From: Akkermansiaceae bacterium
GTDB taxonomy: Bacteria > Verrucomicrobiota > Verrucomicrobiia > Verrucomicrobiales > Akkermansiaceae
Direction: 5' to 3'
Length of the DNA: 55,151 nucleotides
Assembly: GCA_023261045.1 (NCBI GenBank)
Contig: JALRJZ010000003.1
Span: 1 to 55,151, forward strand
Position 1 is the stretch's first letter, and the number at the start of each line of letters is the position of its first letter. The notes under the pieces are model-generated. The model searched no databases, had not been told where the DNA came from, and saw only the letters and a list, made by a program, of their open reading frames with translations. Positions 15,790-25,620 of this stretch are shown here, piece by piece. Made by a program: the position numbers and the translations under genes.

Positions 15790-18027
15790 CTAAGAGCTTG
15801 CGCCAACTGCTTCTTCGAGAGCCTGGAGAGCTTCTGCCGGACCAAAGAGCTCTGGCATGATGATGACGGGAGCTTCGGGGTTCGATGGGGCGATAATGTT
15901 GACTGGAAGATTAGCACGGTTGTAACGCTTAAGGTCGTCGTTAATTGATTGGAGTCGCTGAGTATTGTCGGCTCGGATTAACATGACATTGAGCTCTTTG
16001 AGCTTATCGAGAACTTTTTGGTCTGAGAACACACGGGCCTCATTGACTTTACAGGTCGCTCACCAATCGGCGGTGTAGTCGAGCCAGATGGTTCGCTTTT
16101 TGGAGCGATTCAACTCCATAATGCCAGGGTACCACTCATGCCAAACGAGGCCATAATTGGCTTCGGGTTTGGACACAGAATAGGCCCAGCTGATACCACT
16201 TAAGCTCAGAAGTCCAGCGACTCCCAAGCCAACGCCGAAGCGCTTTGCTTTGGAGACCATCGGAGTAAAGAAGCGTCCGTAGGTATAAATCCCGAGGCCG
16301 ATGAGGCACAAAGCAAAGAGGAACGAATTGAAGTGGTTCTCGCCGACAAGCTTGAGAAACCCCTTCATAAAGAAGACCGCTGTTGCCATGACGAAAAATG
16401 CCATCACTTGTTTGAAGGTTTCCATCCAAGCACCAGGTCGCGGAAGCTTTTTGATCAGCGAAGGAAAGAAGGAAAGAACGAGATAAGGCGCCGAGATTCC
16501 GAAAGCGAAAACGGTAAAGACCGTAAACTGGACAAGCTTGTTTTCTTGAGAAAGAGCAAATGCCATGACCGCTCCAAGGAAGGGTCCGGAGCACGGAGTC
16601 GCGACTAGGGTGGTCAGTGCTCCGGAGAAAAAGGAACCTGAGAATCCCTTTTTTGCTTGGAGTTCGCCTCCCACGCTCGTCAGGCTCGTCCCAATCTCAA
16701 AAAGACCAAAGAGGTTGAGGCCCATGAGAAAAAAGATGATGATCATCGTTCCCAAGAAGATTGGGTTGGTCAGTTGTTGACCCCAATCGAGTTTGAGCGA
16801 GATGATAATGGCAGCTAAAATCCACATGGCCACGAGGAGCCCGATTGTAAAGACCAAGCCATGGATTTTGATTTTTTTGTCGTCCTCCCCAGCCTGAGAG
16901 ACGAAGCCCATGATTTTGAGACCAAGGACGGGAAAGACACAGGGCATCAAATTGAGAATTAACCCACCAAGAAAGACCAATCCGAGCGAAGAGAGAAAGG
17001 TCACTTTCTTTTCCTTTGCTCCGCCAAGAAGCACAAATTCTGGTCGCGCATCGACATTGTAGAGCTTCTTGCCGAGTTCCCGTTCTTCTCCAGATGCGTC
17101 AACAACATGCGCTTCGGTATTCGTTGCTCCTGCGAGCGAACTCGAATGACCAATGAGCTCTGCCTGAAGCTCTAAGCTAGTTGGGCCATACTCGGAGTTG
17201 TAAGTAAAGAGGCCAGGGAGTTTGTTAGAAGCTTCAGCAGCAGCAATCGCCAGCTCTTTGTTTCCCTGATTTCTGACGAGGGTTAGAGTCGCTCCACTTG
17301 GGGTGATCTCGACTCTTTGAGGAGCTTGCGAATCGATCTGTTGATCATGCGAGAAATAATAGACAGGCTCTTCGATCATGGTGCCTTCTGGCGCGATAAT
17401 CTCTAGAAGAATCTTCTCGGAGTCTTCTCGGGCAATCGCGCCCCATGCCGAACCATCTTTTGGAAGTTGTTCCTGGGCGGCTTCAATCACCTTTTGATCA
17501 TCAGATTGGAAAATGGTTTCTTCTCCAACGGTAAGCTTGAATGAAAATTCAAGGTTTCCTGGAATACACATCGATTCATTGCATTCCTGCCAAAGAAATT
17601 TTCCTGAGAGAAGAAGCTCTTGGCCTACTTCAAGCTCATCAGAGGCTTCGACTTCAGCGATGAAAGTCACCGAGCCCTCGTATCCATAGAGAAGCGCGTC
17701 GAGGTCCGCAAATTTTGAATGGATGACGGAAGGACGAGGAAATTTTAACTCGCTAGCCGTCAAGCCTTCGGGAAGGTCCCATTTTACCGAGGGAGCCGCT
17801 CCGACGATCCCGGGGTTTTTGTAATAGGAATGAAAATGTTCTTGGTGGTGGATTGTAAAGGCCACTCGGAAGTAGTCTCCTGGCTCAACGGAGGATGCCT
17901 CGGCAATGACTTTCGCAGTGGTTTTTTGCTCAAGGGAAAATCCGTCTTCAAAGGGATTGGTTTGTGCGAATGCGCCAGGGAGTGACGCGATGACGAGGAG
18001 ACTGAAAAACGCGCGAATGGAACTCAT
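15790..18027 (-). CDS. dsbD: DsbD-type thiol:disulfide reductase, probable selenoprotein (UxxC)
   Basis: Read through an in-frame TGA (16060-16062) this gives 745 residues with all three DsbD parts. After a signal peptide, the periplasmic alpha domain has the cysteine pair C149/C154 (WQECNESMCIPG). The membrane domain has C363 (LMPCVFPVLG) and C479 (VATPCSGPF). The C-terminal gamma domain is thioredoxin-like. DsbD passes electrons from cytoplasmic thioredoxin across the membrane. The TGA is codon 656, at the first cysteine of the gamma CxxC: YTADW-U-ATCKVNE, with C659 present. The 89 codons after it complete the thioredoxin fold, including a cis-Pro loop (ANLPVNI). A hairpin just after the TGA resembles a bacterial SECIS. 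If TGA is a true stop, the product lacks the gamma domain; a sequencing error for TGC/TGT is the other alternative. Confidence 0.85.
16021..16047 (-). promoter_or_regulatory. candidate bacterial SECIS hairpin
   Basis: In the dsbD mRNA the 27 nt lying 13-39 nt after the in-frame UGA fold as GUC-(AA bulge)-UGAG / CUCA-GAC, seven Watson-Crick pairs with an 11-nt apical loop GCCCGUGUGUU that begins with G; a G-U pair could shrink the loop. Bacterial SECIS elements lie within the coding region just downstream of UGA and have a short stem with a G near the start of the apical loop, roughly 16-37 nt from UGA; the loop G here is at nt 22. The fold was made by eye, without energy calculation. Confidence 0.6.
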
Positions 18028-22641: not shown

Positions 22642-25620
22642 CTATTTTTTCAAGGGCACCTGTTGCGGAGACATGAGGTAGGAAAGGAGATCTCGGATTT
22701 GAGCTTCAGAGAGATTGTCCATGAGGGCTTCAGGCATGATGGAAGTTGGAAGGCGCTCGATCTTGAGAATGCTTGTTTTTTCGAGAGTCACTTCCTCGGT
22801 GAGAGAGCGGAGATTCAGAGTGCGATCACTTTGTGAGGCAATCACGCCAGTCAGGTTGCGACCATCAGTGAGTTTAAGAAGCTGAAGTTGATATGGCACA
22901 CTCACATTGGCTCCCGGATCGATGATGTTCTCTAGCAAGTAACCTAAATCGGTTCGTCCTGAACCAGTGAGGTCTGGACCAAGTTCCCCGCCCTGACCAT
23001 AAAGTCGGTGGCACGAAGCACAGAGTTGATTAAACAAGAGGCGACCGTTTGAAAGGTCAGCTTGAGCGCGAAGCTCGGGAGTGAGCATCCGCCTGATCTC
23101 ACTGATTTTTTCTGTCTTCTGGCGGGTGGGTGGGTGGATTTGCCCCCATGATTGATGTAATTGTGTCGTGAGAGCATTCTCTTCAAAAGCTTCAATTTGG
23201 CGTGCGTGATAAGCGCTGATCTCCTGGCGAGGAATTCTTTTGGATTCCACCTCCTTGAGAAGTGTCATTGCCCAGTTCGGGCGGGAAACGAGCGTTTCAA
23301 TTGCAATAATCCGTTCATCAGGCCGGAAAGAAGAATACTTTTTGAGGAGAGTTGTCGCGATCGAGGCATCATCAAAAATGGCAAGCCCTCGAATCGCCGT
23401 TTTATTGACATAACGAGTCGAAAGAAGTTCTTCGCAGATTTGACGAAGGTCTTGAGGTCGCGCATCAATGATGGATTGCAACGCTGCGGATCTCTCGAGC
23501 GGGTCGGCTTTGGAGTCAAAAGCAATGGCTTTGATTGATTCCATGGCACGGCCATCCCCAAAAAGGGCAGAGAGGTTACGGACATGATCGGGATTGCTTT
23601 GAGTCAGTTGCTCGACAGCATACTTCCAGTTTTTGGGTGCAGGGGCTTTTTGCCATCCTTGAAAACCTTCGCAGAGGCCTTCAAGAAGGTGCGGCGCTTT
23701 CGTTGGGTGTTGGATCGCTAGGTCGATGATGGGATCTGGTGAAGCCACCATGGATCTTGCTAGATAACCAAGGAGCTTGGGCCATCGTGTGGCACGGGCA
23801 ACCTGTAGGAGTTCATCGGGCGAGTCCTTTAACAACGGAGTGAGACCAAACCATACAAGTTTTGGAAGGTTTTGGTCTTGTCCATCTTCTTGACGGGAGG
23901 CGAGCGCTGCGGCAAGGCTTGGGCGATCTTGAAGAGGAAGTCGTTGAATGATCGAAGCCAAAGCAAGGCGCACTTTTGCTGAGGGGTCTGAAGTCGCTAG
24001 CCGAAGTAGGTGGTTTTGGAGAGCAGGATTTGAAATTGAGTTGTGTTGAGGGTGAAGTCCGTAAACGTGGTCGAGCGGCAGATGGTCAGTCAAGGAGCGG
24101 AGAGCCCAGATTCGGATGAATTCATCTGAATCACCAAGGAAGGCGTAGGGGTCAATTTTCTCGATGTCCCTTAAGAGCTCCAAAGCTCGAAGTCTCAATG
24201 ACGTCGGCTGATTGGACTGAGCAATTCGATGAAGTTCCTTGCTTGCTAGCCGGGGTGTTTTTGTTTTTTCGATCTGTTGTCTTTGTTTTCTTGGGAACCA
24301 AACATTTGTGTGGTTGAGCGTTTTCAAAAAGTCAGGGAGAGTCTCACTAGAAAGGAGCTGGAGCTGCGGCTCTGGAGGTGTTCCTTGAGAAAAACGGTAA
24401 ATCCGACCGGAAGTCCGATGCACGCCGGTGTGATCGTGGCATTCGCCAGTATCAGACCAATCAAGGGCGTAGAGAGCACCCTCAGGTCCTGTTTGGATTT
24501 CAAGCCCGCGGAACCATAAATCACCTGAAAGCAAGACATCGGGTTCATGCTTTCCGATATACCCGCTGCCCGTTGACTCTAATCTTTCTACGTTGAGTCT
24601 TCGACCATGTTGATTCCAAGTTAGAAGCTTGCCCTGCCATGAGCTTGGGAGGTGTCCGCCTTGATAAATGCACATGCCGATATGGGCATGACCGCCCCCA
24701 TAGCCATTGGCTCGACCATCGCGAGATTTTGTCCAGCTTCCCGACCGATCATAATGATAGTGATCGGCGTGCATCTCGATGGGCTCGTAGATGTGTTGAT
24801 TGGGCGAGGGATTAAAGGGCCTTTCAAAGTGGGCCCCTGCAATCAGGTGCCACAGATGTCCATTGACCGTATTGATAAAGAAAAGTTCTCCATGCTGATC
24901 CCAGTCGTGCCCCCAAGGATTCGTCGTTCCATGACAAAGGACTTCAAATGTTTTACGAAGAGGGTGAAATCTCCAAATCCCTCCCTCGAGGGGGACTCTC
25001 TGGTCCTCTGTCGATCCGGGAGGGCCTACCATTCCGGGGCATGAACCACCGCAGCGCCCATAGAGCCAACCGTCTGGTCCAAAGCGCAGTCCATTGGCAA
25101 AGTTATGGTAGTTATTTTGAGCAACTGTGAATCCATCGAGAACGACTTCGGGTGGAGTATCGGGAAGATCATCTCCATTTTTGTCAGCAATAAAGAGAAG
25201 CTGTGGGGGACACATCGCCCAAATGCCACCCTGGCCCATTTCAACTGAGGTCAGCATTTGCAGTTGATCGGTAAAAATCTTTCGTCGATCTGCTTGGCCG
25301 TCATGGTCGGTGTCTTGAAGGATAATAATCCGGTCGCGGAGGCTGAGCTCGAATCGTTTTGATCGCTCCGCGTAGGTGTAGTTCTCTGCGACCCACATGC
25401 GTCCTAGATGATCCCATGTCATGGAAATGGGGTTTTGCACTTCGGGTTCAGATGCAAACACCGTCGTTTGAAACCCTTCGGGGATCTGAAATGATTCGGC
25501 AGCCTCTTGCGCTGTCAGAAGCGGAGTGGACGTTTCTTTTTCCGAGTTAAAAGGAAGAGGGAACTTTTCTGCAAAGAGACAGTGAGGCAGACATAAAAAG
25601 ACAATCCGGAGGTATCGCAT
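22642..25620 (-). CDS. PVC-type heme-binding CxxCH protein with N-terminal propeller
   Basis: 992 residues, signal peptide first (MRYLRIVFLCLPHCLFA). Residues ~45-430 form a sugar-dehydrogenase-like beta-propeller (PEGFQTTVFASEPEVQNPIS, NGLRFGPDGWLYGRCG, LYALDWSDTGECHDH). Residues ~440-800 are helical and HEAT-like. A single c-type heme site CASCHRLYGQG lies near residue 867 with a downstream GPDLTGSGRTDLGYLLENI block typical of this family. Such proteins are exported and thought to act in sugar oxidation or electron transfer, but few are characterised. It lies 96 bases downstream of a DUF1080 gene on the same strand, a common pairing in PVC bacteria. Confidence 0.92.
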   Translation of the reverse strand: MRYLRIVFLCLPHCLFAEKFPLPFNSEKETSTPLLTAQEAAESFQIPEGFQTTVFASEPEVQNPISMTWDHLGRMWVAENYTYAERSKRFELSLRDRIIILQDTDHDGQADRRKIFTDQLQMLTSVEMGQGGIWAMCPPQLLFIADKNGDDLPDTPPEVVLDGFTVAQNNYHNFANGLRFGPDGWLYGRCGGSCPGMVGPPGSTEDQRVPLEGGIWRFHPLRKTFEVLCHGTTNPWGHDWDQHGELFFINTVNGHLWHLIAGAHFERPFNPSPNQHIYEPIEMHADHYHYDRSGSWTKSRDGRANGYGGGHAHIGMCIYQGGHLPSSWQGKLLTWNQHGRRLNVERLESTGSGYIGKHEPDVLLSGDLWFRGLEIQTGPEGALYALDWSDTGECHDHTGVHRTSGRIYRFSQGTPPEPQLQLLSSETLPDFLKTLNHTNVWFPRKQRQQIEKTKTPRLASKELHRIAQSNQPTSLRLRALELLRDIEKIDPYAFLGDSDEFIRIWALRSLTDHLPLDHVYGLHPQHNSISNPALQNHLLRLATSDPSAKVRLALASIIQRLPLQDRPSLAAALASRQEDGQDQNLPKLVWFGLTPLLKDSPDELLQVARATRWPKLLGYLARSMVASPDPIIDLAIQHPTKAPHLLEGLCEGFQGWQKAPAPKNWKYAVEQLTQSNPDHVRNLSALFGDGRAMESIKAIAFDSKADPLERSAALQSIIDARPQDLRQICEELLSTRYVNKTAIRGLAIFDDASIATTLLKKYSSFRPDERIIAIETLVSRPNWAMTLLKEVESKRIPRQEISAYHARQIEAFEENALTTQLHQSWGQIHPPTRQKTEKISEIRRMLTPELRAQADLSNGRLLFNQLCASCHRLYGQGGELGPDLTGSGRTDLGYLLENIIDPGANVSVPYQLQLLKLTDGRNLTGVIASQSDRTLNLRSLTEEVTLEKTSILKIERLPTSIMPEALMDNLSEAQIRDLLSYLMSPQQVPLKK

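Follow-up and report, generated by a model that had tools for sequence, protein, structure and literature searches.

In the DsbD protein of Escherichia coli (PMC3961690) and in ScsB, the suppressor of copper sensitivity B (PMC8900818), electrons travel from thioredoxin to a membrane domain, then to a gamma domain, from there to an alpha domain and on to periplasmic partners. The attacking residue of the DsbD gamma domain is Cys461, whose pKa of 10.6 is raised by Asp455 and Glu468. No higher pKa has been reported for a CXXC motif of the thioredoxin family, and this high value shields the reduced gamma domain from side reactions and reoxidation (PMC3961690). Among selenoproteins, the GOS ocean survey of 2008 listed 22 selenocysteine (Sec) sequences with a UxxC motif under 'Trx-like 2 (thiol disulfide interchange protein)', cd02953 (PMC2398784), and an inventory from 2026, covering 119 families of prokaryotic selenoproteins, includes TsoB as well as a UxxC 'thiol:disulfide interchange protein' (PMC13188914).

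We compared these systems with a gene on the minus strand of a window from an Akkermansiaceae bacterium (the whole stretch of DNA analysed, 55,151 nucleotides of contig JALRJZ010000003.1). The source assembly is a draft of 2.93 Mb in 433 contigs and is about 88% complete; among named relatives, the closest are Akkermansiaceae. The features of the gene are as follows.

15790..18027, minus strand: predicted DsbD/ScsB-family selenoprotein gene, 745 residues with U656, TAG stop (read-through translation, Pfam, alignment).
17551..17892, minus strand: alpha domain, DsbD_N, residues 46-159, with redox pair C149/C154 (Pfam, alignment, profile, fold).
16363..16986, minus strand: transmembrane beta domain (DsbD_TM) from residue 348 to 555, in which C363 and C479 are invariant (Pfam, alignment).
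15937..16143, minus strand: gamma domain, Thioredoxin_7, residues 629-697, with U656/C659 (Pfam, profile, and a fold like that of E. coli cDsbD).
16060..16062, minus strand: TGA of codon 656, in frame and predicted to encode Sec (equivalent by alignment to E. coli DsbD Cys461).
16051..16053, minus strand: codon of the resolving Cys in UxxC, C659 (does not vary in the alignment).
16024..16042, minus strand: SECIS hairpin with a 7-bp stem, nt 18-36 after the UGA (RNAalifold, covariation, frozen third codon positions).
16031..16035, minus strand: apical loop CGUGU, with G second (alignments of TGA genes).

The minus-strand frame reads DYTADW-TGA-ATCK around the TGA and stays open to the TAG at 15790-15792. 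DsbD_N, DsbD_TM and Thioredoxin_7 follow one another in this order along the read-through frame, each above its Pfam cut-off. Translation and Pfam confirm what the first-pass annotation had described, namely a lone TGA at codon 656 (ADW-TGA-ATC-K), with C659 intact, in an otherwise complete DsbD-type frame. Each domain holds one redox pair (C149/C154, C363/C479 and U656/C659); all three are kept in the alignment of homologues, and the active-site motif of the gamma domain is UATC in place of CxxC. If the UGA were a true stop, the product would be a gamma-less transporter and the downstream frame a separate small gene. An 80-codon ORF with a GTG start does lie at 15790-16032, and CcdA is a known case of the transmembrane domain without gamma. 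However, a conserved stretch, D-Y-T-A-D-W-U-x-x-C-K-x-N-E, straddles the UGA in a single frame, C659 is encoded upstream of the GTG, and a true stop would leave the SECIS and the Sec machinery without purpose here. We therefore consider termination at codon 656 as the sole outcome very improbable.

The single read-through protein had no phmmer matches in the PDB. A profile built from 26 homologues matched the E. coli DsbD gamma domain there, with U656 placed on Cys461. The AlphaFold model of the transporter has a mean pLDDT of 78.6 and a pTM of 0.42, its membrane part being of modest confidence. Its gamma domain resembles the DsbD C-terminal domain (TM about 0.67) and its alpha domain the ScsB N-terminal domain 6c29 (TM 0.73 on target), which was also matched by profile (E 1e-12). 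The best NCBIfam match was the TsoB model NF045694 with 168.5 bits, yet this is far below its cut-off of 805 bits. As the NCBI DsbD model NF001419 scored 113.9 bits, below its cut-off of 330, we placed the gene in the wider DsbD/ScsB family. The original naming as DsbD thus stands for the family and for a gamma domain like that of E. coli DsbD, but not for the alpha domain, which is nearest to ScsB by profile and fold. The protein is best named a DsbD/ScsB-family three-domain transmembrane thiol electron transporter, its transport function being predicted by homology. No conserved gene neighbourhood was found around the transporter at E 1e-8. Elsewhere in the window, 22642-25620 (minus strand) encodes a large protein resembling, by eye, the dehydrogenase/HEAT/cytochrome c fusions that are frequent in Planctomycetota and Verrucomicrobiota, with a CxxCH motif close to its C-terminus.

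Reading the aligned codon directly, we found TGA in 31 of 145 sampled genomes of the same family (28 genes in loci L019-L046 and three in L161-L163). Homologues elsewhere carry TGC or TGT, with TGA also present in L068, L090 and L076 (Verrucomicrobiia) and in L077 (Kiritimatiellia; a Kiritimatiellota contig). At the aligned codon, 40 distinct TGA genes compare with 84 TGC/TGT genes. The exact motif D[YF]TAxW-TGA-xx-C occurred in 39 of 387 genomes of the order, 11 of which belong to a second family, and a reversed control pattern in none of the 387. We counted a TGA only after reading the aligned codon itself or matching the exact motif, since one genome flagged with an internal TGA (G225) has TGC at the site. 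The 39 genomes include G129, whose match (L207, G129:C223:300-1400, DFTARW-TGA) we set aside as chance or assembly error: it does not lie in a DsbD-like frame and the genome is without selA.

A lone in-frame stop in one draft metagenome assembly resembles, at first, a sequencing error or a nonsense mutation, leaving a miscalled base or a pseudogene. Yet the identical TGA recurs across dozens of separately assembled genomes, in homologues down to about 36-40% protein identity, and the RNA hairpin described below is conserved only in TGA genes. In close pairs, dN/dS is equally low after and before the TGA; for L024/L025, dN is 0.01 and dS 0.50 after it, and 0.01 and 0.45 before. With dN far below dS after the TGA, the C-terminal part must be translated in frame. 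The relatives keep TGA rather than TGC or TGT at codon 656, and purifying selection was found where the first-pass annotation had named C-terminal decay as counter-evidence. This conservation refutes the error or pseudogene reading, whose remaining probability is next to nil.

In a tree built from 124 homologues, the Sec genes, 40 in number, form one cluster with four Cys genes (SH-aLRT 96), and at least four changes between Sec and Cys are required, this being a quick tree with several long branches. The Cys genes inside the Sec group are L093 and L106, on Pirellulaceae contigs (Planctomycetota), and L047 and L048. Judging by their placement, the four may have reverted from Sec to Cys, and the two from Planctomycetota, L093 and L106, may reflect transfer between phyla.

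The genes proposed earlier as a check, selA, selB, selC (tRNA-Sec) and selD, are all in the source assembly. selA (503 bits) and selD (384 bits) score above their cut-offs, as does selB (319 bits, cut-off 242), while the tRNA-Sec exceeds the Rfam gathering score and has the anticodon TCA by ARAGORN. The selD frame (L016 1501-2430; G000:C288:13934-14863) has a single in-frame TGA near its start, SSCAG-TGA-ASKLGQ. Sec-containing SelD proteins with a comparable in-frame TGA are known, and the SelD of the source genome is probably a selenoprotein too, because of this TGA of its own. selA was present in 27 of 31 TGA genomes, compared with 38 among the remaining 114 (Fisher p = 8e-8, kinship ignored), an association that gave p = 0.008 without the window's genus (kinship likewise ignored). 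The four TGA genomes without a selA match are drafts; all four have selB above the cut-off, and one has a tRNA-Sec above the gathering score. In the second family, selA matched in 11 of 11 TGA genomes, ten of them above the cut-off.

Cys is the residue expected at codon 656, as would suit a genome-wide reassignment of UGA (to Trp or Cys) or a Cys suppressor acting without SelB. Against this, TGA terminates 11 of the 36 long ORFs of the window, one being this gene's own truncated frame, and the genome carries tRNA-Sec, selA and selB alongside a conserved SECIS. We hold both reassignment and such a suppressor to be extremely unlikely. Bacterial UGA decoding competes with termination, and partial Sec insertion could turn the ratio of full-length to truncated protein into a selenium-dependent switch of periplasmic reducing power. 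Such a switch would add to Sec insertion rather than exclude it, and fits with the prediction that, without Sec, the one product formed would be missing gamma's catalytic part. Nothing points to a selected function of the truncated form, though, and no Cys-type back-up paralogue was seen, with one match in the source assembly at its completeness of about 88%. We think this addition unlikely.

A hairpin after the UGA had been proposed at nt 13-39. It exists, but the conserved helix covers nt 18-36: the further outer pairs proposed, nt 13-15 with 37-39, are by eye mostly not kept in relatives. The window's own copy has one mismatch in the 7-bp stem and, when folded alone, did not outdo dinucleotide shuffles (z between -0.46 and +1.09), so a single sequence could not prove the hairpin; an Rfam scan of the window gave no matches. 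From 21 distinct TGA genes, RNAalifold yielded a consensus of a 7-bp helix with the five-base CGUGU loop. This helix is paired in 93% of cells, versus 88% in shuffles and 31-69% when slid. Both sides change together at an outer pair (U-A to C-G in three sequences) and at an inner pair (C-G to G-C in four). Synonymous-site entropy is 0 to 0.54 bits at codons +7, +9, +10 and +11, versus an upstream mean of 1.34; Cys genes vary at codons +7 and +9 to +11, and the synonymous freezing is found only in TGA genes. The CGUGU loop appears again in the second family (L202, L206) and is consistent with the features of bacterial SECIS elements, which have a small apical loop with a G (PMC1088965).

The conserved TGA, the purifying selection, the Sec machinery, the SECIS covariation and the invariant redox residues support the reading of the first-pass annotation, that the transporter gene is a selenoprotein. 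With a probability of roughly 94%, Sec would replace the first, nucleophilic Cys in gamma's active site. The parts for Sec insertion are present and conserved, and SelB, carrying Sec-tRNA-Sec and docked on the downstream hairpin at nt 18-36, would put Sec at UGA 656. By homology, cytoplasmic thioredoxin would hand electrons to the membrane pair C363/C479, from which they would move to U656/C659 in gamma, and then via C149/C154 in alpha to periplasmic partners. The gamma domain had been taken for the terminal electron-transfer step, which does not hold by homology, as it passes electrons from the membrane domain to alpha. Lacking selenium or SelB, the cell would end translation ahead of gamma's catalytic part, and the relay would be dead.

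Both acids that raise the pKa of Cys461 have counterparts here. D650, the Asp455 equivalent six residues before U656, is invariant, while E663, the Glu468 equivalent seven residues after it, is Glu in 38 of 40 Sec genes versus 9 of 84 Cys genes, where Lys occupies the position in 74 of 84. Because the E663 codon (window 16039-16041) lies within the SECIS stem and the Sec genes are related, this correlation between Glu and Sec is suggestive only. Since the Sec form retains these two acids, Sec may make transfer to alpha faster while D650 and E663 still protect it. A tentative picture, which we would give less than even odds as a whole, is that of an undescribed lineage-wide selenoprotein family with a selenol at the position of the pKa-10.6 Cys, in which periplasmic reducing power might depend on selenium.

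The predicted Sec sits in the central relay of a periplasmic reducing system, a hub that lies in the membrane and is not a soluble enzyme. It is conserved in a large environmental bacterial group that includes a cultured member; Persicirhabdus sediminis KCTC 22039 has the gene too (L065), with TADW-U-LICK around the predicted Sec. Sec and Cys forms that occur naturally on a single tree can be compared directly, which offers a test of why Sec is used. Ordinary gene calling would shorten the protein at UGA 656, and database entries for this group's transporters are probably cut short by such automatic calling.

Compared with E. coli DsbD (cDsbD, PDB 2FWE/2FWF; 1VRS), the gamma fold is alike, with U656 and C659 equivalent to Cys461 and Cys464 and D650 and E663 to Asp455 and Glu468 (PMC3961690), whereas this transporter has Sec for Cys461 and a larger alpha domain. 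ScsB (Proteus mirabilis, 6C29) matches the alpha domain best, in fold as well as in sequence, and has the three-domain order in common (PMC8900818); the difference is the Sec in gamma. TsoB (NF045694), a rhodanese/DsbD fusion-like selenoprotein, shares the DsbD-like part, but the motif listed for it, UxxxxU, contains two Sec (PMC13188914), in contrast to the single UxxC here. A three-domain DsbD/ScsB protein with Sec in gamma is absent from the 119 families of the 2026 inventory (PMC13188914), and in the text of the GOS paper we found neither a full-length architecture nor an organism nor a SECIS analysis for this family (PMC2398784). Our search of the literature on Sec in Verrucomicrobiota or Akkermansiaceae found nothing on point. 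The GOS entries belong to cd02953, which we take to be the DsbD-gamma domain of CDD; they have a Sec-containing UxxC, as here, and plausibly include reads of this transporter family. They are read-level domain matches in a table (PMC2398784), in contrast to the full-length architecture described here. The transporter family may therefore have been glimpsed earlier at read level. UxxC selenoproteins are well known and, given these and the 22 GOS Sec reads, it is the lineage-wide variant that is new here, not the principle.
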